Positions 3 through 25,580 of a stretch of DNA of 64,000 nt are shown piece by piece. A program made the position numbers and the translations under genes. Positions within the stretch are counted from its first letter, which is position 1; each line of letters begins with the position of its first letter. The notes beneath the pieces were generated by a model. That model was not told the origin of the DNA. It made no database searches and saw only the letters and a list, made by a program, of their open reading frames with translations. Where the stretch lies: contig JAILDJ010000272.1 of the NCBI GenBank assembly GCA_024689505.1, positions 17,049-81,048 on the forward strand, written 5' to 3'. Source of the stretch: Clostridiales bacterium. Lineage in GTDB: Bacteria > Bacillota > Clostridia > Lachnospirales > Bianqueaceae.

Positions 3-1391
3 CTGTTCTATTATGATGAGCTGTCTGTAAAAGAAATCGCTTCAGAACTGGGGATCCCTGAGGCCACGGTCAAGAGCCGGCTGCAGTACGGCCGCCGCAA
101 GATCGAGACGCAGGTCAGGGAATTGGAGAAGAAGGGTACGAAGCTGTACAGCATGGCGCCGCTCCCGTTCTTCCTCGCCTTGCTGCGTGAAGCTGCGACA
201 GTGGATGCGCCTTCGGCCCTTTTGCCAGGGATCCTTGCGGGCGGCAGCGGCACGACGGGCACCGTGGGTGTCATTGCGGCGAAGACGGCAGGAGCAGCCG
301 CAAAAGCAGCCGTTGGCGCTACTGTGAAGACCGCGATCGCCGCCAAGATCGCGGCGGGCGTAGTGATCGTGACATTGGTCGGCGGAGGGACCACCGCGGC
401 CGTGATCCATCATAATCGAAAGGTGCAGAAAGAACCGACACAGGCCAGTGAAATGCAAGTGGAAGAGGTCGAGCAGGAAGAAGAGTCCCTGGTCAGACCG
501 GAAGCGGAAGCGGTGCCTGAACCTCCGGAAGAGCCGGAACCTCCAAAGGAGCCGGAGGTGTCAGAAGGATCGGAGTCAGAGGTATCGGAGCCGGAGGAAT
601 CGGCTGAAGAGTCTGAACCTGCAACTGAAGAACCGGAAGCACCTGCATCTGATACTGCCTGGGTAGACGCTTATCAACAGATCCTGGACGGCTGTCAGCA
701 ATGCCTTTCGGAAGGCCTGAATGGATCGAGCCCATTCCTGGAATACGTCTGGTTCCAGCGTGTGTTGGGGGTGCAGGATGGGTCCCGCGCACTGCAATAT
801 GCGCTGCATGACGTGAACCATGATGGCCGGCTGGAGCTTATCCTGGCCGTGGATCAGCTTCTGGAGGATGGGTCGGAAGTGTGGATCCCCTTTGAGATCT
901 ATGCTTTTGACGGTACGATCGCGGTTCCGCTGCTGCGGGAGTATCTGGACGAAGCACATTCCCTGGAGATCTGGGCGTCCGGCGGCCTGTCCATCAGTTC
1001 CTTGCAGGAAGGGCAGACGTTCTATAGCCTGCCGGAGGGCAGTGCTGCAGTGAAACGATTGGACGAGTACCTGATCCAGTTCGATGAAAAGGTCGATCAG
1101 TCTTTGGCATATCACAGCATCCTGACACCGATCGTTTCTTCTTTGGAAGAAATGCAGTCCAATGGTTTTCCTGAGGAAATGATCGCCTATATCAAAGCAC
1201 AGCTTCAGATCCCGGAGGATCTGGAGACAGAGGATCGGATCGATTTCAATGATACGACCTATTGGGATGTGGGTGAGCAATGGCTCGTCAACTGCGAATT
1301 TTATTATGACGGGGAACTGGTCGCTGCCGCGCTCGTCGACAGAGAGACCGGTGAACTGGTGCGCAATATCATTCTGTATTCGGGAAATTGA
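3..1391 (+). CDS. Sigma-70 region 4 protein (5' truncated by window) with C-terminal transmembrane helix, Glu/Pro-rich linker and extracellular domain
   Basis: Frame is open from nt 3: LFYYDELSVKEIASELGIPEATVKSRLQYGRRKIE is a typical sigma region 4.2 HTH. It is followed by an Ala/Val TM segment (AAKIAAGVVIVTLVGGGTTAAVI), an E/P/S-rich spacer and a domain with DVNHDGRLELI. The track's TTG start at 123 is probably internal. Confidence 0.8.
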   Translation: MFYYDELSVKEIASELGIPEATVKSRLQYGRRKIETQVRELEKKGTKLYSMAPLPFFLALLREAATVDAPSALLPGILAGGSGTTGTVGVIAAKTAGAAAKAAVGATVKTAIAAKIAAGVVIVTLVGGGTTAAVIHHNRKVQKEPTQASEMQVEEVEQEEESLVRPEAEAVPEPPEEPEPPKEPEVSEGSESEVSEPEESAEESEPATEEPEAPASDTAWVDAYQQILDGCQQCLSEGLNGSSPFLEYVWFQRVLGVQDGSRALQYALHDVNHDGRLELILAVDQLLEDGSEVWIPFEIYAFDGTIAVPLLREYLDEAHSLEIWASGGLSISSLQEGQTFYSLPEGSAAVKRLDEYLIQFDEKVDQSLAYHSILTPIVSSLEEMQSNGFPEEMIAYIKAQLQIPEDLETEDRIDFNDTTYWDVGEQWLVNCEFYYDGELVAAALVDRETGELVRNIILYSGN

Positions 1392-1478
1392 TCCTTTCAA
1401 AAAACTTTTCGAAAATTAAATCCTGACTTCTTCCAGCTGCGTCTTAAGGGTGAAGAACGCAAACAGGAGGAAAACAAA

Positions 1479-2753
1479 ATGAAGGTCGGATATGAGAAGC
1501 ATCACGACGAGAAACTTACATTCAAAGACTACAAGGCGCTGTATAAGCTCTCAGCGCGCGGCTGGATCTGGCGGCATGAGGGGGATGCGTTCCTGCAGAA
1601 CCTGTTCCGCAACAGGGCGTTGATCTTTTGGGCGATCTGTTGGTTCGCGATCATCGACAGCCACTATTTCCTGCTCCAGTCCATGATCGGTATCATCTAT
1701 TCCGTGTTCCATCCATCGACCCTGCTCAAAACGTTGGTAGGTTTCAGTGAATTATTGGCGGTCAATCTGCTGATCATCGACCCCGTCAAGTTGAAACGGT
1801 CATTACATTTCACAAAGTCGGCCTGGTGGAAGAATACCGGGATCCATCCGGTGGAGATCATCCAAGATGCGGGACTTTACGGTGAGTATATCGCGACCAT
1901 GCGTGTAGAAGAAGAACTGGACAAGGCGCATGTGTACGGCAAGATCTACAACAGTCTGATGATCCCGATCCAGAATCATGGCCAGAACGCCTGGAGCGAA
2001 GCGGATATCGTGGCAGTAACAGAAAATGGGATCCAGGTGTTCGAAGTCAAGAACCATATGGGCTTGATCGAAGGCGCTTTCAATGGGGACGTATGGTACC
2101 GGAATGGTGATTATACAGCAGATCCGCCGTATAAGAATCCCTTGCTCCAGAACCAGCAGCATGTCAATTATCTGATCGAGTACCTGTATCCGCGGATGGC
2201 TGCGGCAGGTATGCTGGATAGCAGTAGATCGCTGCTGCATCATTTCGTGAACATCGTCATGTATACGCAGAACCGGTATCTGAACATCGGACTGGATTTC
2301 TCTCAGATGCCGATGCAGACAGGTTTCTGCATGACCGGAGGCAGGACCCCGGTGGACTATACGGTGAAGCTTACGAAAAACCTTTGCAGCGGCAATTTCA
2401 CACACGAGCAGGTGGACTATATCTGCAGTGTCCTGGATCCTTTGGCAGCTGTCGATCCCTATCAGCATGCGGCGATGGTCGCGGCAAAGGTCCGGCAGGA
2501 AAGCATGTTCGATAACGATCCGCAGTACCGCGCATCGTACCGTGTCGTTGTAGGGAATATCAACGGTGGGGAACCACTGGTCAATATCGCGAAGACGGTC
2601 AGTCCCTATACTTGGTATGATATCGAGGGTAATTATTTCTTTTGGGCAGAACCGGAGTTCTGCATCCTTGAACAGTCGGCACCGGCCGGAGGCAGGGCTG
2701 GATATCAGCAGAGTTTGGCGCTGGCAAGGCAAATGACAGGGCAGGCGGCGTAA
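1479..2753 (+). CDS. NERD (nuclease-related) domain protein with N-terminal hydrophobic segments
   Basis: IYNSLMIPIQNHGQNAWSEADIVAVTENGIQVFEVKNHMGLIEG matches the NERD core (E-x-D-h-h-h...G-h-x-V-h-E-V-K). RBS aggagg upstream. Confidence 0.75.
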   Translation: MKVGYEKHHDEKLTFKDYKALYKLSARGWIWRHEGDAFLQNLFRNRALIFWAICWFAIIDSHYFLLQSMIGIIYSVFHPSTLLKTLVGFSELLAVNLLIIDPVKLKRSLHFTKSAWWKNTGIHPVEIIQDAGLYGEYIATMRVEEELDKAHVYGKIYNSLMIPIQNHGQNAWSEADIVAVTENGIQVFEVKNHMGLIEGAFNGDVWYRNGDYTADPPYKNPLLQNQQHVNYLIEYLYPRMAAAGMLDSSRSLLHHFVNIVMYTQNRYLNIGLDFSQMPMQTGFCMTGGRTPVDYTVKLTKNLCSGNFTHEQVDYICSVLDPLAAVDPYQHAAMVAAKVRQESMFDNDPQYRASYRVVVGNINGGEPLVNIAKTVSPYTWYDIEGNYFFWAEPEFCILEQSAPAGGRAGYQQSLALARQMTGQAA

Positions 2754-2844
2754 AATCGCCTGCCTGCTTGATTCTGTCAGGATTTCGGAGTATACTATAT
2801 ACGTGTTGAAAACTATCAAGGGGAGAGTCAGATAGTACATATAC

Positions 2845-3720
2845 ATGGCTAAAAAGAAATCTAAGAAACATAGTTGGATCGGTACCGTGCTTTTGGTATT
2901 GATCCTGCTTGCGGGTGTCGGGCTTTTGGTGTACCCGACGTTCAGTGACTGGTGGAATACCATGCATCAGTCCCGGGCCATCGCCGGTTATGTAGAGCGG
3001 ATCAGTAATGCGGATCAAGAGGAGATCGAACGTTTGTGGGAGGAAGCACACGCGTATAACGCGGAGCTGGCCAAAAAGGGCAATCGGTTCAAGGTCTCGG
3101 AAGAAGAACTGGAACGATACAAAACCGTGCTGGATGTGACGGGAACGGGCATCATGGGTTATATCGATATCCCGAAGATCGACGTATCGCTGCCGATCTA
3201 TCACAGTACGAGTGATGAAGTGCTGCAGATCGCGGTAGGCCATATGGAGGGGACATCGCTTCCGGTCGGCGGCAAAGGCACACATGCGCTGTTATCCGGA
3301 CATACAGGGCTGCCCTCCGCCAAATTGTTCACCAACATCGACAGGCTGGAAGAGGGCGACAGGTTCATGATCAATGTCCTGGGCAGGATGCTGACCTATG
3401 AAGTCGACCAGATCCAGGTCGTGCTGCCGATGGAAGTAGAAGACCTGGACATCGATCCGGAGCAGGACTATGTTACGCTGATCACCTGCACGCCCTATGG
3501 CGTCAATACACACCGCCTGCTGGTGCGCGGGCGTCGTGTAGAGGAAGATACAGAAGAGCAGATGGTAGTGCCCGCGGAAGCGGTCTTCCTGGACAAGATC
3601 GTCCTCGGTGTCGTCGTTGGTGTACCGGTACTTTTGTTCATACTGATCATGACCTTGATCTTTACGCGAAAAAAGAAAAAGCATGCACGAAAAGGCTTGA
3701 CAGCGGAAGACGAGGTGTGA
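2845..3720 (+). CDS. Class C-like sortase
   Basis: GIMGYIDIPKIDVSLPIYHSTSDEVLQIAVGHMEGTSLPVGGKGTHALLSGHTGLPSAKLF...TLITCTPYGVNTHRLLVRGRR with catalytic H/C/R; N- and C-terminal TM helices. Confidence 0.93.
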   Translation: MAKKKSKKHSWIGTVLLVLILLAGVGLLVYPTFSDWWNTMHQSRAIAGYVERISNADQEEIERLWEEAHAYNAELAKKGNRFKVSEEELERYKTVLDVTGTGIMGYIDIPKIDVSLPIYHSTSDEVLQIAVGHMEGTSLPVGGKGTHALLSGHTGLPSAKLFTNIDRLEEGDRFMINVLGRMLTYEVDQIQVVLPMEVEDLDIDPEQDYVTLITCTPYGVNTHRLLVRGRRVEEDTEEQMVVPAEAVFLDKIVLGVVVGVPVLLFILIMTLIFTRKKKKHARKGLTAEDEV

Positions 3721-3726
3721 TATACT
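3697..3726 (+). promoter_or_regulatory. Sigma-A-type promoter for tRNA-Pro, embedded in the 3' end of the sortase gene
   Basis: TTGACA (3697-3702), 18 nt spacer, TATACT (3721-3726), about 29 nt before the tRNA. Confidence 0.6.
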
Positions 3727-3754
3727 ATTCAAGCTTCTGTCAAGGACAGAACGT

Positions 3755-3828
3755 CTGGGTGTAGCTCAGTTTGGTAGAGCGCTAGAATGGGGTTCTAGAG
3801 GCCGCAGGTTCGACTCCTGTCACCCAGA
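3755..3828 (+). tRNA. tRNA-Pro (GGG anticodon)
   Basis: Acceptor CTGGGTG/CACCCAG, D arm GCTC..GAGC, anticodon arm CTAGA-atGGGgt-TCTAG, T arm GCAGG-TTCGACT-CCTGT. CCA not encoded. Confidence 0.95.
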
Positions 3829-3834
3829 TTGGAA

Positions 3835-3879
3835 CCCATGCTCAGAGCTCGGAGTCTCCGACCGGCTCTTAGCAGTGGG
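3835..3879 (+). promoter_or_regulatory. Structured leader hairpin upstream of rpsO
   Basis: CCCA.GCT.AGAGC.TCGGA-gtc-TCCGA.GCTCT.AGC.TGGG forms a nested imperfect hairpin between tRNA-Pro and the rpsO RBS. Confidence 0.55.
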
Positions 3880-3909
3880 GGATATTTATTTTTAGGAGGA
3901 AATGTTACA

Positions 3910-4173
3910 ATGACAAAGGAAAGAAAGCTTGAAATTATCAAGGAATTCGGCCGTTCCGAGGGTGACACCGGTTCTCCTGAAGTGCAGATCGCGCTTCTGA
4001 CCGAGCGTATCAATCACCTTACCGAGCATCTGAAGACCCACAAAAAGGATCATCATTCCCGTCGTGGTATGCTGATGCTGGTCGGACAGCGCCGCGGTAT
4101 GCTGAACTATCTTCGCAGCAAAGATATCGAGGCCTATCGTACTCTGATCGCCAGACTGGGTATCAGAAGATAA
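3910..4173 (+). CDS. rpsO: 30S ribosomal protein S15
   Basis: [75 protein letters not shown] aggagg; the ATG at 3910 is preferred over the track start. Confidence 0.98.
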
Positions 4174-18316: not shown

Positions 18317-18343
18317 GAGACGGGTATTGTTCCGTCTCTTTTT
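18317..18343 (+). terminator. Rho-independent terminator after recX
   Basis: GAGACGG-gtattgtt-CCGTCTC-TTTTT. Confidence 0.85.
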
Positions 18344-18405
18344 CATAAAGATTGTAAGATATCGTTTGTTTTGTCGTCATTAAGGGTGAAAAGGAGGTGG
18401 GTGCA

Positions 18406-18966
18406 TTGGAAGATGAGCAGATCGTGCAGCTGTATTGGGACAGGAACGAGTCCGCGATCGAGGAATCATCGAAGAAATATGGGTCCTACGTGCGTCAGAT
18501 CGCCTGCCGGATCCTGAACGACATCGCGGATGCGGAGGAATGTGTAAATGATACCTGGCTCCGGGCTTGGAACGCTATACCTCCGCAGAGGCCCACTGTT
18601 TTAGGCGCTTTTTTCGGAAAGATCACCAGAAATCTGTCTTTTGACATGTACAGAAAAGCGCGCCGGGGTAAAAGAGGCGGCACTGAGATCGATCTGGTCC
18701 TGGATGAACTGGGCGAGTGCGTCTCCGGGCAGGAGGATACGGAGACACGGTGGGAGTCAAAAGAACTGGTGCGGGAGATCAACAGATTCTTGAATTCTCT
18801 GCCGCGGACGAAGCGAGACATGTTCGTTCTTCGTTACTGGTATGCGGACAGCATCCATGCGATCGCGGATCGATATCAGACCACCGAGAACAATGTATCT
18901 GTGACCTTAAGCCGCCTGAGAAAAAAACTGCGCACACATCTGACAGAAAGAGGGTATGATATATGA
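18406..18966 (+). CDS. ECF-type sigma-70 family sigma factor
   Basis: YGSYVRQIACRILNDIADAEECVNDTWLRAWNAIPPQRP (region 2) and LPRTKRDMFVLRYWYADSIHAIADRYQTTENNVSVTLSRLRKKL (region 4). GGAGG favours TTG 18406 over GTG 18397. Confidence 0.9.
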   Translation: MEDEQIVQLYWDRNESAIEESSKKYGSYVRQIACRILNDIADAEECVNDTWLRAWNAIPPQRPTVLGAFFGKITRNLSFDMYRKARRGKRGGTEIDLVLDELGECVSGQEDTETRWESKELVREINRFLNSLPRTKRDMFVLRYWYADSIHAIADRYQTTENNVSVTLSRLRKKLRTHLTERGYDI

Positions 18967-20408
18967 AAAAAGAAGACCTGTTCGATGCAATGGGTGAGAT
19001 CAACGAAGAATTCATTCGGAATGCCCGGAAAGAGCGAGTGCCCAGGAGAGTTTTGTGGATGCGATGTGCGGCGGCCGCGACGTGCGCTCTGGCAGTATTG
19101 GTGGTTTTTCTCAGATCACCTTTTTTTCGGAACAAGTTCAATAAAGAAGGGGAGTACACACAAATGGAAGGTGTTTTCGCGGTCAATGCCGCGTATCCCG
19201 AGCCGGTCGCTCAGCATATGAGTGCCAGTGAATTCTATGAGAACGATGCTCATTGGGAATGGTGGACTTCCTATAGAAAGTTCACAGACAGATCCTCGAA
19301 ACTGCAGGATGGTCTGCAGGGATACTATTCCAATATCATGGGGCAGATCCTGACTGCGGAGGACGAGAACACGGTCTGTTCTCCCATCAATATCTATATC
19401 GCATTTGCCATGTTGGCAGAGGTTTCAGACGGTTCGACCCGTCAACAGATCCTGGATATGCTGGGGTGCTCTGATATCGATAAGCTGCGTGATCAGGCCA
19501 ATGCGTTGTGGCAGAGCAATTATGTGGACACACCGGCTCTGAAAAGTCTGCTTGCCAATTCGATCTGGCTGGACCAATCTGTCGCGTATCATTCCGAGAC
19601 GCTGCAGCGCCTGGCAGATCAGTATTTTGCATCATCTTTCAGCGGAATACCGGGCTCTCAGGAGATGGATGAAGCACTGCGGCATTGGACGGATGAGAAT
19701 ACCGGCAATCTGTTGAGTGAATATACGAAAGATATGAAGATCGATCCAAATACGGTTTTGGAGATCCTGTCAACGATCTACTACAAAGCGACCTGGATGG
19801 ATACGTTCCTTGAGAAGAATACGACACAGGAAACATTTCATGGGACTGTAGGCGACACCACCGTCGATATGATGCATCGGTCGGATATGATGGGCGTATA
19901 TCGGACGGACACGTATATCGCATTGAGCCTCAATCTGACAGACAGTGGGAATATGACGTTCTATCTGCCAGAAGAGGGTGTAGATGTGAATGATCTGGCG
20001 GCAGATCCAAGTGTTCTCAATGCAGCCAGATACGGAGAGGATGAGAACAGGTCCTATCCGATGGTCCACCTGTCAGTGCCCAAATTCCGAGTGACAGCCA
20101 AAACGGACCTGATCGAGACGATCCGGTCGCTGGGAGTTACAGATGCATTAGACCCGGCAGTATCTGATTTTACACCGCTTACAACAGAAAAAGATGAATT
20201 ATTTGTGAGTAAGGCAGAGCATGCGGCATTGATCGAGATCGATGAGGAAGGTGTTACCGGAGCCGCCTATACTGAATTGGCCATCGCCGAAGGTGCAGCA
20301 CTTCCGGAAGAAGAGATCGATTTTGTCCTGGATCGTCCCTTTATGTTCGTCGTGACAGGGATGGACGGATCCATTCTGTTTTCCGGGATCGTAAGAAATA
20401 TACAGTAA
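18963..20408 (+). CDS. Membrane-anchored serpin with a short cytoplasmic N-terminus, coupled to the upstream sigma gene
   Basis: NTVCSPINIYIAFAMLAEVSDGSTRQQILDMLG; LSTIYYKATWMDTFLEKNTTQETFHG; EEGVTGAAYTELAIAEGAALPEEEIDFVLDRPFMFVV (hinge and reactive-centre loop region). TM helix after about 32 aa; ATGA overlap with the sigma gene. Confidence 0.92.
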   Translation: MKKEDLFDAMGEINEEFIRNARKERVPRRVLWMRCAAAATCALAVLVVFLRSPFFRNKFNKEGEYTQMEGVFAVNAAYPEPVAQHMSASEFYENDAHWEWWTSYRKFTDRSSKLQDGLQGYYSNIMGQILTAEDENTVCSPINIYIAFAMLAEVSDGSTRQQILDMLGCSDIDKLRDQANALWQSNYVDTPALKSLLANSIWLDQSVAYHSETLQRLADQYFASSFSGIPGSQEMDEALRHWTDENTGNLLSEYTKDMKIDPNTVLEILSTIYYKATWMDTFLEKNTTQETFHGTVGDTTVDMMHRSDMMGVYRTDTYIALSLNLTDSGNMTFYLPEEGVDVNDLAADPSVLNAARYGEDENRSYPMVHLSVPKFRVTAKTDLIETIRSLGVTDALDPAVSDFTPLTTEKDELFVSKAEHAALIEIDEEGVTGAAYTELAIAEGAALPEEEIDFVLDRPFMFVVTGMDGSILFSGIVRNIQ

Positions 20409-20412
20409 AAAG

Positions 20413-20456
20413 AAGGCACTTGGACTTTCGTGCTATGCACTCCGTCCTCGTGCCTT
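20413..20456 (-). repeat. GA-element copy 1 (structured hairpin)
   Basis: Minus strand: AAGGCAC GA GGAC GGA GTGC ATA GCAC GAA AGTCC AA GTGCCTT. Confidence 0.7.
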
Positions 20457-20461
20457 TTATC

Positions 20462-20520
20462 ATGCCATATGATAAAACAAGTCCTTCTGCAAGCAGAGGA
20501 CTTGTTTTATCGCATGGCAT
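20462..20520. repeat. 59-nt long inverted repeat, copy 1
   Basis: ATGCCAT-at-GATAAAACAAGTCC-ttctgcaagcaga-GGACTTGTTTTATC-gc-ATGGCAT; 14-bp perfect core stem. Confidence 0.85.
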
Positions 20521-20544
20521 AGGATTGATTTGGTGCATAAACCC

Positions 20545-20577
20545 GGAGGCCTTCGCGCGGCTGCGCTTTCGGCCTCC
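20545..20577 (-). repeat. GAAA/GAA-element hairpin, paired with GA-element copy 2
   Basis: Minus strand: GGAGGCC GAAA GCGC AGCC GCGC GAA GGCCTCC. Confidence 0.7.
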
Positions 20578-20580
20578 TGA

Positions 20581-20623
20581 AAGCACTCGGACTTTCGTAC
20601 TTCCGTACTTCGTCCTCGTGCTT
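20581..20623 (-). repeat. GA-element copy 2
   Basis: Minus strand: AAGCAC GA GGAC GAA GTAC GGAA GTAC GAA AGTCC GA GTGCTT. Confidence 0.75.
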
Positions 20624-20626
20624 TTT

Positions 20627-20697
20627 GCGTTCTTAATGTCGTATAAAAGCGCGAGTATACAAGTACACTCGAGCTTCTTTATATGACTTTAGAACGC
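20627..20697. repeat. About 70-nt imperfect hairpin
   Basis: GCGTTCT..GTCGTATAAAAGCGCGAGTATA..ACACTCGAGCTTCTTTATATGAC..AGAACGC. Confidence 0.7.
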
Positions 20698-20723
20698 TCT
20701 TAAAAGTGTTGCAATAAGTCCCC

Positions 20724-20751
20724 GCGTGGCTGCACTGCGTTTCCGCCACGC
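20724..20751 (-). repeat. GAAA/GAA-element hairpin (degenerate), paired with GA-element copy 3
   Basis: Minus strand: GCGTGGC GGAAA CGCAGTGCA GCCACGC. Confidence 0.55.
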
Positions 20752-20752
20752 T

Positions 20753-20800
20753 AAAAGGCACTCGGATTTTCGTACTTCGTACTTCATCCTCGTGCCTTTT
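20753..20800 (-). repeat. GA-element copy 3
   Basis: Minus strand: AAAAGGCAC GA GGAT GAA GTAC GAA GTAC GAA AATCC GA GTGCCTTTT. Confidence 0.75.
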
Positions 20801-20803
20801 GTC

Positions 20804-20862
20804 ATGCCATATGCTAAAACAAGTCCTTCTGTAAGCAGAGGACTTGTTTTATCGCATGGCAT
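20804..20862. repeat. 59-nt long inverted repeat, copy 2, abutting the 3' end of pruA
   Basis: ATGCCATATGCTAAAACAAGTCC...GGACTTGTTTTATCGCATGGCAT; near-identical to 20462-20520. Confidence 0.85.
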
Positions 20863-20867
20863 GGGAC

Positions 20868-22493
20868 TTATTTGGTCATGTATGGATACGTGATCGCCGT
20901 GGTGGGGACGAGGGTCTCTTTGATGTTGCGGGTGCTGGTCCAGCGGTAGAGGTTCAGCATGGAGCCGGCTTTGTCGTTGGTGCCGGAAGCGCGTCCGCCG
21001 CCAAAAGGCTGCTGGCCGACTACAGCACCGGTCGGTTTGTCGTTGATGTAGAAGTTGCCGGCTGCAGAGGAGAGTTTCTGCTCCATATAGATGATAGCGT
21101 TGCGGTCGTTCGCGAAGATCGCGCCGGTCAAAGCGTATGGAGAAGCGGTGTTGCAGGCTTCCAGTGCCTCATCGAGCTGATCATCCGGGTAGACGTACAC
21201 ACTCAGGACCGGTCCGAAAATCTCTTCGACCATGGTCTTCTCGTACGGAGTCTTGCACTCGATGACAGTCGGATATACAAAGTAGCCCTTGGAATCGTCC
21301 AGAGAACCGCAAAGGATCTCGCTGTTCTCGGATGCTGCCGCATAGTCCACATAGGACTTGATGTTGTCGAAGGAAGCCTTGTCGATCACGGCGCCGAGCA
21401 TGGTGGTATAGTCCGTAACATCACCGACCTTCAGGGCTTTAGCTTCTTCGATCAGACGCGGTTTGACCTGCCCCCATAAGCTTTCCGGAATGAAAGCGCG
21501 GGAAGCGGCAGAGCACTTCTGGCCTTGGTACTCGAAAGCACCGCGGACCAATGCGGCGACGAGGGGCTCGACAGCGGCGGTCGGATGCGCAAAGACGAAG
21601 TCCTTACCTCCGGTCTCGCCGACCAGACGCGGATAGGATTCATAATCGAAGATGGTCTCGCCGACCTGCTTCCAGATCGTCTTGAAGACTTGCGTGGAAC
21701 CGGTAAAGTGTACGCCAGCCAGCATCTTGTCGGACAGAACATACTTGCTGACATCGGATCCGCGGCTGGGCACAAAGTTGATGACGCCGGCGGGCAGACC
21801 GGCTTCCATCAGGATCTGCAGGAAGTAGTAGTTAGAGAGAACAGCGGTGGAAGAGGGCTTCCACAAAGCTACATTGCCCATGATCGCGGGTGCGGTCGGC
21901 AGGTTGCCGCCGATGGAGGTAAAGTTGAACGGAGTGATGGCCATGATGAAACCATCGAGCGGACGGTACTCAAGACGATCCCAGATGCCTTTGGAACTGT
22001 TCGGCTGCTGGGCAAAGATCTCCTGCGCGAAGTATGTGTTGAAACGAAGGAAGTCGGCCAGCTCGCAGGCAGAATCGATCTCGGCCTGGAAAGCGGTCTT
22101 GCTCTGCCCCAGCATGGTCGCGGCGTTGATCTTGGCACGATAGGGACCGGTCAATAACTCAGCAGCTTTGATGAAGATGCTGGCGCGGTGTTCCCAGGGC
22201 ATGAACTCCCAGGCTTTTTTGGCTTCCAGTGCGGCAGCGATTGCCTCCTTCAGCTCTTTCTCTCCAGCCATATGATAGCGAGCGATCACATGCTGATGGT
22301 CGTGCGGCATGACGATATCTTTCATGACGCCGGTGCGGACTTCTTTGCCGCCGATGATCAGCGGGATCTCGATGATCTGTGCCGACTGTTTTTCCAGTTC
22401 TTTTGTTAATGCCAGTCGTTCCGGAGATCCGGGCATATATCCGAGGACCGGCTCGTTGGCCGGCATGGCAAGTTTATAGGTGCCGTTGTTCAT
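20868..22493 (-). CDS. pruA: L-glutamate gamma-semialdehyde (1-pyrroline-5-carboxylate) dehydrogenase
   Basis: ALDH family: RLVGETGGKDFVFAHPTA; FEYQGQKCSAASRAFIP (catalytic Cys); QQPFGGGRASGTNDKAG. Confidence 0.93.
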   Translation of the reverse strand: MNNGTYKLAMPANEPVLGYMPGSPERLALTKELEKQSAQIIEIPLIIGGKEVRTGVMKDIVMPHDHQHVIARYHMAGEKELKEAIAAALEAKKAWEFMPWEHRASIFIKAAELLTGPYRAKINAATMLGQSKTAFQAEIDSACELADFLRFNTYFAQEIFAQQPNSSKGIWDRLEYRPLDGFIMAITPFNFTSIGGNLPTAPAIMGNVALWKPSSTAVLSNYYFLQILMEAGLPAGVINFVPSRGSDVSKYVLSDKMLAGVHFTGSTQVFKTIWKQVGETIFDYESYPRLVGETGGKDFVFAHPTAAVEPLVAALVRGAFEYQGQKCSAASRAFIPESLWGQVKPRLIEEAKALKVGDVTDYTTMLGAVIDKASFDNIKSYVDYAAASENSEILCGSLDDSKGYFVYPTVIECKTPYEKTMVEEIFGPVLSVYVYPDDQLDEALEACNTASPYALTGAIFANDRNAIIYMEQKLSSAAGNFYINDKPTGAVVGQQPFGGGRASGTNDKAGSMLNLYRWTSTRNIKETLVPTTAITYPYMTK

Positions 22494-22733: not shown

Positions 22734-25580
22734 ATGATGAAGAAATCATTGATAAGGATCATCAGTCTGCTGATGGCAGCACTTATTTTGATCCCTACAT
22801 CTCTGCCTGTTTTCGCTGAGGAAGCGGAAACGGAACAACCGATATCCGAGACAGAAGAGACGGAAGCAGTTCCTTCTCAAGAAGAAACTGTAGATGAGGA
22901 GCCGATCCAGGAAGAAGAGCCTGCATTGGAAACCGTGGAAGAAGCAGCGGAGGAACCTGTAGAAGAGACTGAAGCGGAGTCCATGGAAGGACCAGCAGAA
23001 GAGGAAGAGCCTCTGGAAGAGCAGGCGGATGCTGAAACTGTCGAGGAACCGGCCGCGGAGGAGGAAGTGCCGGTGGAAGAGACGGCCGATGCTGAGGACG
23101 AGATCGTAATGGTAGCATCCACATTGCCGGATGAGACCATGGATCTGACCAAAGCCAAGATCGAATTCGTCGATGAAACACCTATCGTATATGACGGCAC
23201 TGAAAAAAAGCCTGAGTTCATCCTGGTCTATCAAAAGGATGAGGCTTCTGAAGAGTACCGTGTGATCCAGAAAGATCTGGAAACGGTATGCAAAGTCGTA
23301 TATTCCAACAATATCAATGCCGGTACAGGCAAGATCACGATCACTTATAAAGATGATCCGGCGACCAAACCCACCAATAAGCTTGTCGGAACGTTCACGA
23401 TCGAGAAAGCGCCGCAGACCTTTACGGTCAAAGTACCTTCCACTAATATGTACGTCTATGACAAGCAGACCGTCACGGTGACGGAAGCTGTCGGTACTGT
23501 GACATATAAATCTTCAAAAACATCAGTTGCGACTGTCTCTGCTAAAGGTGTGATCACAGCTGTAGGCCCTGGTTCTGCCACGATCACGGTCACTGCCGCG
23601 GGAGACACCAATCATCTTGAAACCGCTAAGACCCTCAAACTGAAAATCGAATATGAGGAGTTCGATATCGAAAACTGTACGATCAGTTTGGAAAATGAGG
23701 AGCTTCCTTATACGACAAAAGAGATCTGTCCTGCTGTTACCATTACGTACAAGAACCGGACTCTGGTCGAAAATGAGGATTATACGCTGACCTATTCCAA
23801 CAATATCAAGGTCGGCACGGCCAAGGTCGTGATCCATCCGACGGGTCATTGCCATGGAGATGATGTCACTAAGACGTTCAAGATCGTCAAAGCCAAGAAC
23901 CCGATCGTAGCAAAGAATATGAATAAAGTGTTCTCTCTGAAGGAGCAGAAGTTTACGCTGAATGCTAGTGCCAAGGAAGGTGCTACCATCACTTTCAAGA
24001 TCACGAAGCCGAGCAACCCGAAGATCACGATCAATGCTAAGACCGGTGAAGTGACGATCCCTGCCAGTTATCTGGGATATGCCAAAGTAGCCATCACCTC
24101 CAGCGAGACAGAAAGCTATGTCAAGACGACGAAATACGTCTATGTTTATGCGCGCTATATGACCAAGACGCGGATCCTGGAATCCATCAAAGGTATCATG
24201 GCGTCCTGGAACGGTGCTGATTACAACAGTGCGATCTATAAAAAGATCATCGATACGTATAATGCCTATGCGGATCAGATCGGCGCCGGAAAGATGAAGA
24301 CCAGTTATCCTTGGTGCGCTGCGACGGTCTCCGCTGCCTGGATCACAGCAGGTGTGGCAAAATATACGGGCATCGAGATGTCCTGCGGACGCTTCATCAA
24401 TATCGCGAAGGAGAAGGATGCCTGGAACAATGATTGGAAGAGCGTGCCGAAAGTGGGCGATGCCATCATCTATTCGTGGGATGGTACACATTCCAGTCAT
24501 GACCATGTAGGTATGGTCATAGCCGTTTCCAAGGATAAGAAAACCTTTACTACGATCGAAGGCAATACCAATGGCAGTGGCATGTACAATGGTGAAGTTG
24601 GTTCTTTCACTCGTAAGGTCAGTTACAAGTACATCCAGGGTTTCATTTCCTATGATTACTCTAAGATGGCGGATGAACTGAAATACATCAAACGGATCGA
24701 CGATGATGAATTCATCACCGTATCTTCCATTGCTGCGCAGAAATATACTGGTTCCGCGATCCGTCCTTCGGTCACCATCAAGGATCAGGGAAAGACACTT
24801 ACAGCAGGCACGGATTATACACTGTATTATACGTCCAATACTGCGCCGGGTACGGCCTCGATCACGATCGTTGGTAAGGGGAACTATTCAGGCGTACGCA
24901 CCTTGAATTTCACTATCAAGGCCAGTTATTCCTATTATCATGTCATCGAAACGAGCGTGCGCTATCGTACCGGTCCGGGCACCAGCTATTCTGTTGCAGG
25001 TACGTTCAAGAAGAATCAGAATGTCAAGGTCCTGAAAGGATATTCCAAATCCGCCAACGGGTATACCTGGTATGCCGTGATGATCGGCTCCAATACGTAT
25101 TACGCCGCCTCCATGTATTTGAAGAAGGGCAAATACGTATCCAATACAAAGAGCATCAATGCTGACAGTATCACAGTATCCAGGATCAGCAATAAGAGTT
25201 TCAAGGGCTCTGCCATCAAGCCGTCGCCTACCATCAAGGACGGGGATACGAAGCTGGTCAAAGGCACAGACTATACGCTGTCTTATAAGAACAATAAATG
25301 GCCCGGGACCGCAACGGTCACGATCACAGGTATCGGTAAGTATTCCGGTACACGGACAGTCACGTTCAAGATCGTCGGCAAGTATACCAAGTATACGACA
25401 AAGTATGCTTTGAACTATCGCAGTAAACCTTCGACGTCCGGTACGATCAAAGGCACCTTCGCGCAAGGCGCCACAGTCACGGTACTGAACGGATATTCGA
25501 AATCGGCGAATGGATACACCTGGGTCATCGTCAAGGTCGGAACGAAGTATTATTATACTGCCAAAGATTTTCTTAAATGA
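22734..25580 (+). CDS. Secreted modular cell-wall protein: signal peptide, acidic linker, Ig-like repeats, CHAP amidase, SH3b domains
   Basis: Signal peptide MMKKSLIRIISLLMAALILIPTSLPVFA; Glu-rich region; YPWCAATVSAAW...GDAIIYSWDGTHSSHDHVGMVIAV...TIEGN (CHAP/NlpC-like); two YRTGPGTSYS/YRSKPSTSG SH3b domains. Confidence 0.85.
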   Translation: MMKKSLIRIISLLMAALILIPTSLPVFAEEAETEQPISETEETEAVPSQEETVDEEPIQEEEPALETVEEAAEEPVEETEAESMEGPAEEEEPLEEQADAETVEEPAAEEEVPVEETADAEDEIVMVASTLPDETMDLTKAKIEFVDETPIVYDGTEKKPEFILVYQKDEASEEYRVIQKDLETVCKVVYSNNINAGTGKITITYKDDPATKPTNKLVGTFTIEKAPQTFTVKVPSTNMYVYDKQTVTVTEAVGTVTYKSSKTSVATVSAKGVITAVGPGSATITVTAAGDTNHLETAKTLKLKIEYEEFDIENCTISLENEELPYTTKEICPAVTITYKNRTLVENEDYTLTYSNNIKVGTAKVVIHPTGHCHGDDVTKTFKIVKAKNPIVAKNMNKVFSLKEQKFTLNASAKEGATITFKITKPSNPKITINAKTGEVTIPASYLGYAKVAITSSETESYVKTTKYVYVYARYMTKTRILESIKGIMASWNGADYNSAIYKKIIDTYNAYADQIGAGKMKTSYPWCAATVSAAWITAGVAKYTGIEMSCGRFINIAKEKDAWNNDWKSVPKVGDAIIYSWDGTHSSHDHVGMVIAVSKDKKTFTTIEGNTNGSGMYNGEVGSFTRKVSYKYIQGFISYDYSKMADELKYIKRIDDDEFITVSSIAAQKYTGSAIRPSVTIKDQGKTLTAGTDYTLYYTSNTAPGTASITIVGKGNYSGVRTLNFTIKASYSYYHVIETSVRYRTGPGTSYSVAGTFKKNQNVKVLKGYSKSANGYTWYAVMIGSNTYYAASMYLKKGKYVSNTKSINADSITVSRISNKSFKGSAIKPSPTIKDGDTKLVKGTDYTLSYKNNKWPGTATVTITGIGKYSGTRTVTFKIVGKYTKYTTKYALNYRSKPSTSGTIKGTFAQGATVTVLNGYSKSANGYTWVIVKVGTKYYYTAKDFLK

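Follow-up and report, generated by a model that had tools for sequence, protein, structure and literature searches.

Can a membrane-anchored serpin, encoded in overlap with an ECF sigma factor, act as the anti-sigma factor of this sigma and, being consumed by extracellular proteases, signal their presence? Such a pair was found in the window, i.e. in the whole 64,000-nucleotide stretch of DNA analysed here, which comes from a fragmented assembly of 295 contigs. We put at about 0.6 the probability that it is an autoregulated ECF sigma/membrane anti-sigma pair whose outer domain, an inhibitory-type serpin, is both sensor and effector, so that trapping of a protease would free sigma. The broader statement, that widespread sigma pathways sense extracellular proteases by suicide capture and that consumption of the anti-sigma serpin triggers its own replacement, appears slightly better than an even bet. 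Direct support is provided by the arrangement of the genes, a promoter-like element, conservation of the pair, the modular nature of the cytoplasmic stub that precedes the membrane helix, loss of the stub motif together with sigma, the hinge of the serpin and the occurrence of serpins as operon output.

The sigma gene (18406–18966, + strand) most probably starts with TTG at 18406, 7 nt 3' of GGAGGTG, since the GTG at 18397, taken as the mechanical start of this open reading frame, lies within the Shine-Dalgarno sequence. Its product of ~185 aa contains regions 2 and 4 only, as is characteristic of ECF sigma factors, and was recognised by both Pfam (Sigma70_r2, E=5e-12; r4_2, E=5.8e-7) and NCBIfam (sigma70-ECF, 9.2e-22). 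The following gene (18963–20408, +), which overlaps the sigma gene by ATGA, encodes 481 aa. On the same + strand it comprises the stub proposed as a short anti-sigma segment (residues 1–29, 18963–19049), a transmembrane helix (residues 30–51, 19050–19115), an extracellular linker that by AF2 includes the start of the serpin helix A region (residues 52–129, 19116–19349), the serpin domain (residues 130–479, 19350–20399; Pfam E=7.5e-61) and, within the latter, the hinge and reactive centre loop (residues 428–457, 20244–20333). The hydrophobic peak starts at residue 30 (Kyte-Doolittle value 2.09), and AF2 modelled a helix across the same segment, 30–51; mean pLDDT of the model is 74.8, while helices 3–11 and 15–21 of the stub were predicted with low confidence. 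Basic residues preceding the membrane segment suggest an N-in topology. Thus the partner gene adjoins and overlaps the sigma gene, and its product has one transmembrane segment and a probably cytoplasmic N-terminus, as membrane anti-sigma factors do. The anatomy proposed in the original prediction (ECF sigma, ATGA overlap, one transmembrane helix, serpin) was therefore reproduced by Pfam, NCBIfam, AF2 and Kyte-Doolittle analysis, except that its “about 32 charged residues” was wrong: the stub is of mixed charge, with a net value of +1 across residues 1–33.

Signals on both sides of the pair delimit it. A terminator-like hairpin with a T run after recX (18317–18338, +; GAGACGGGTATTGTTCCGTCTC TTTTTC) sets it apart from the upstream gene, an ECF-type promoter TGTAAG-N16-CGTC (18353–18378, +), predicted to be autoregulatory, precedes its own operon, and a strong hairpin lies right 3' of the serpin stop codon (20412–20457, +; −26.1 kcal/mol across a 71-nt stretch, z = −5.3), where it likely terminates the two-gene unit. 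Taken together, these elements make the pair look like a self-contained transcription unit. Similar elements, TGTAAC/G-N16/17-CGTC or CGCT, are present upstream of several related sigma genes. A second exact match to the promoter pattern was not found in the window genome at that stringency, and sigma may thus control hardly anything besides its own operon; a wider regulon was sought with the same pattern and rejected, the lipoprotein serpin L002 being no evident target. This other serpin of the genome (G000:C63) is preceded by a 230-aa gene that is AIM24-type-like by eye, and no sigma gene was found in the stretch fetched around it.

Serpin is the sole Pfam domain of the partner protein. It is near-complete (positions 15–369 of the 370 in the profile are matched), and the predicted fold resembles the structures of antithrombin, PAI-1, tengpin and conserpin (Foldseek E 1e-29). 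The hinge P17–P8 reads EEGVTGAAYT, with Gly at P15 and small residues, as in inhibitory-type serpins, and 29 residues separate P15 from the Pro of RPF, which makes the loop long enough for insertion. Val at P14 and Tyr at P9 are atypical, the textbook residues being Thr/Ser and Ala, respectively. Across the fused serpins the inhibitory-type hinge is kept, and Ala445 is near-invariant among those aligned. The predicted P1–P1' bond near Gly444–Ala445 would suit elastase- or subtilisin-like enzymes. That the serpin is a pseudogene was ruled out by its open frame, the conserved hinge and dN/dS of ~0.06–0.09 in the main serpin body. Miropin, tengpin and the B. longum serpin share the fold and the inhibitory-type hinge; they are stand-alone proteins, whereas the window serpin is fused through a transmembrane helix to a sigma-partner stub.

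This stub has a recognisable signature. Aligned stubs approximate to the consensus M(N/K)xxDLxDAxxxIDDxxxxEA, behind which come basic residues and then the transmembrane segment, so that the N-terminal motif given in the original prediction is real and represents the stub common to partners of the window sigma family. Across the order and class, nearly all matches to the stub profile (E<=1e-5) are products of the gene right behind a window-family ECF sigma, commonly with the same ATGA overlap. A further profile search placed 25 of 27 loci in this position, and a sigma-first census registered a stub partner in 29 of the 32 window-family sigmas. Outer domains carried by the stub are diverse: DUF4179/DUF5643-like, RsgI_M with PepSY, and unassigned ones. 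At L172 (G039) a stub-TM partner with RsgI_M and PepSY repeats occupies the equivalent position, which ties the ECF family of the window to RsgI-type sensing. No curated anti-sigma domain was found in the stub above the cut-offs of Pfam and NCBIfam; having no recognised domain and falling short of the 50 aa taken for class I anti-sigma domains (PMC7406223), it does not belong to that class. Class II ECF anti-sigma factors (CnrY type) carry a short two-helix cytoplasmic segment before the membrane helix (PMC7406223). The window stub, with its two low-confidence AF2 helices ahead of the membrane segment, resembles them without a demonstrated sequence relationship. CnrY systems sense metals.

Relatives within the genus show what happens to the stub when sigma is lost. 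G001 retains the pair, and its serpin protein is 87% identical to that of the window genome (G000), the linker being the least conserved part (68%). In G003 the equivalent locus, with recX before and an aldehyde-dehydrogenase-like gene after, contains the serpin and no sigma; what is left is the promoter-like element and ~30 bp from the 3' end of the sigma gene. A stub HMM trained without the window genus scored the window at 35.6 bits, G001 at 39.5, L208 at 22.9, L207 at 17.9 and the G003 stub at only 4.5, a value that reflects one deletion in one MAG, situated mid-contig and leaving a scar. The G003 serpin domain is still ~80% identical though the stub motif is lost. Faster overall evolution of the stub after the loss of sigma was considered and not found: the stub/serpin dN ratio is not raised in the sigma-less lineage (~2.0–2.3 vs 2.5), the loss being visible in which residues changed and not in the rate. 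G002 has a related membrane serpin at another locus, without stub or sigma, and the related sigma-less membrane serpins L003, L022 and L023 likewise have no stub. Loss of the motif alongside sigma argues that the stub is the part that would hold sigma. The case for an action of the stub on sigma is strongest here, in this 4.5-bit score and in the tie between the stub profile and the sigma family; anti-sigma function of this putative short segment is well supported by genomics.

To estimate recurrence of the pair, serpins were sought in 392 genomes of the order and their neighbourhoods were read; the class and named genomes followed. Sixteen loci with an intact sigma and stub-TM-serpin were registered, spread over several families of the order and two families beyond it: L001 (the window), L005, L207, L024, L114, L118, L210, L012, L025, L157, L236, L104, L123, L125 and the two from outside the order, L254 and L263. 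Thus the genome survey suggested in the original prediction found the pair both conserved and recurrent, and the non-conservation named there as a refutation did not occur. Among named genomes, the nearest relatives are MAGs of uncultured Bacillota, Clostridiales and Lachnospiraceae, and several of these carry a ruminant-gut label. Serpins of L036 and L092 are fused too, with other sigma types and stubs. At L208 the sigma is represented by its region-4 half only, at L235 the partner, with an L024-type linker, is truncated by the contig end, and L270 has a disrupted serpin frame and no sigma that could be found. At L114 (G337) sigma and stub-TM-serpin are followed on the same strand by another sigma of that family (1080–4106 as oriented). 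The serpin frame of L036 (G373, − strand), which lies behind another type of ECF sigma, encodes a 719-aa transmembrane protein with BspA-type leucine-rich repeats after the serpin.

In the 19-genome family 8 sigma–serpin adjacencies were found against 0.026 expected (Poisson P ~5e-18), as calculated for 32 sigmas of the window kind and ~36 serpins with the number of genes estimated from genome size; one of the 8 is cut by a contig end and its serpin was deduced from the linker. If they are counted as 3 independent events only, P is ~3e-6. Enrichment and recurrence rule out chance adjacency. On a FastTree phylogeny of 148 serpins the fused label changes 11 times, at least 8 changes being forced by well-supported branches, and the label for a serpin partner, placed on a quick-search tree of 61 sigmas, changes 8–9 times, at least 4 of these changes being forced; both counts are blind to gain versus loss, and some branches are long. 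Serpin partners have at least five separate placements on the sigma tree (window/L207; L012/L025/L157/L236; L123/L125; L114; L024/L210/L104). An oddity of a single lineage was thereby ruled out by both trees.

Serpins were also found as further genes of related operons. Sigma, a stub-TM protein without full outer domain and a lipoprotein serpin follow each other at L119 and L120; in L124, L129, L138 and L277 the stub-TM carries some other outer domain before the lipoprotein serpin, L138 and L277 belonging to different orders; and in L012, L025 and L280 sigma is followed by the membrane serpin and then by a lipoprotein one. The operon of L281 contains three serpins. Protease inhibition is therefore a common theme of sigma/stub/serpin units, and since serpins are also an output of related operons, the serpin domain is probably an effector as well as a sensor.

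Based on this data one can envisage the following course of events. At rest sigma would be held at the membrane by the cytoplasmic stub. An extracellular protease attacking the reactive loop would become covalently trapped, and the resulting changes, i.e. insertion of the loop, the attached protease and exposure of the linker, may cause the anti-sigma to be cleaved and to undergo intramembrane proteolysis. Freed sigma would transcribe its own operon and restore the consumed serpin, and in relatives it would supply extra secreted serpins too. What we infer, then, is that the stub binds sigma, that trapping of a protease is the trigger and that the cleavage cascade follows. A homologue of the M50 site-2 protease is present in the window genome; to our knowledge, nearly all bacteria have one, so its presence is permissive only. 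No site-1 cleavage site was identified, which counts against this scheme.

The direct precedent for an anti-sigma that is receptor and inhibitor at once is RsiV, which binds and inhibits lysozyme, is cut by signal peptidase and then by RasP, and belongs to an autoregulated operon (PMC5014341). SigV-RsiV of Bacillus subtilis and Clostridioides difficile shares with the window pair an ECF sigma and an adjacent single-pass anti-sigma; the outer domain of RsiV binds and inhibits the attacking enzyme and autoregulation yields more inhibitor (PMC5014341), as we propose for the serpin. The two systems differ in that the outer domain here is a serpin, its ligand is presumably a protease and capture would be covalent and irreversible; the stub sequence is different, and intramembrane proteolysis is only proposed. 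Pfam detected no RsiV-type lysozyme-binding domain in the window protein, which would therefore work like RsiV without being a member of its family. SigI-RsgI of Clostridium thermocellum likewise relies on a membrane anti-sigma whose outer sensor domains are interchangeable, and L172 has RsgI_M. SigI, however, belongs to a different sigma family, the known outer domains of RsgI sense polysaccharide substrates (PMC12203970), and the RsgI_M central domain is absent from the window protein according to Pfam.

The main rival reading, which we regard as possible but rather unlikely, leaves the stub a true anti-sigma and lets the switch answer some other cue, such as envelope damage or another protein. 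The serpin would then be a membrane-displayed inhibitor made by sigma and fused for anchoring and dosage, and trapping would carry no signal. Plain serpin genes behind sigma and a stub with another outer domain in several operons speak in its favour, as does the coexistence of fused (L123/L125) and split (L119/L120) versions within one clade. Membrane-anchored and lipoprotein serpins also persist without sigma, in sister genomes among others, and this indicates a signalling-independent use of the serpin that counts against sensing by trapping. On the other hand, outer domains of other partners differ at the equivalent place, as is usual for sensors, the serpin was put there repeatedly even though its delivery would need no more than a separate lipoprotein gene, and in RsiV inhibitor and receptor are one domain.

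Two other schemes are less likely. The serpin may inhibit a site-1 protease in cis or among its neighbours, so that a foreign protease would use up the serpin and let the site-1 protease act on the anti-sigma, the signal being loss of active serpin and not the complex. Membrane anchor, linker, inhibitory-type hinge and replenishment would fit this brake equally well by inference, but it requires a hypothetical site-1 protease that is of the serine type and matches the serpin in specificity, and it would leave the pathway permanently on after removal of the serpin, and we consider it highly improbable. Hardly better are the chances that the stub leaves sigma uninhibited: sigma and the membrane serpin would then share no more than a transcript, and the stub would act as a positive factor or serve simply as a leader for membrane insertion. 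The lack of a match to curated anti-sigma domains would agree with this, but the stub follows the window sigma family whatever the outer domain, is absent or degraded where sigma is gone, and has an RsgI_M protein as its counterpart in the equivalent position.

What appears to be new here is a serpin as the outer domain in an otherwise known kind of ECF/anti-sigma signalling. A phylogeny of 6,000 sequences notes membrane-anchored prokaryotic serpins, never mentions sigma factors and calls the functions of bacterial serpins relatively enigmatic (PMC8233489). No description of a serpin with an ECF sigma/anti-sigma pair was found in the literature searched, most subscription papers and preprints being outside its scope. 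Should trapping turn out to be the signal, this type of signalling would gain a new sensing principle, with irreversible covalent capture of proteases added to the known triggers, and bacterial serpins would gain a regulated physiological role. Gut Clostridia might in this way detect and resist proteases of the host or of competitors, and a one-use protease reporter for laboratory work may be conceivable. Owing to recurrence of the pair, the claim is testable in any culturable relative.

The region behind the pair has some peculiarities of its own. Downstream of the serpin, at 20413–20876, there are two copies of a 122-nt element that share 89% identity and lie 342 bp apart; together with additional hairpin-forming fragments between them they make up a small repeat cluster. 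Further on, positions 22734–25580 encode a 948-aa protein that looks secreted on visual inspection; its N-terminal part is acidic, some of its segments are repeated, and it is perhaps exposed at the cell surface.
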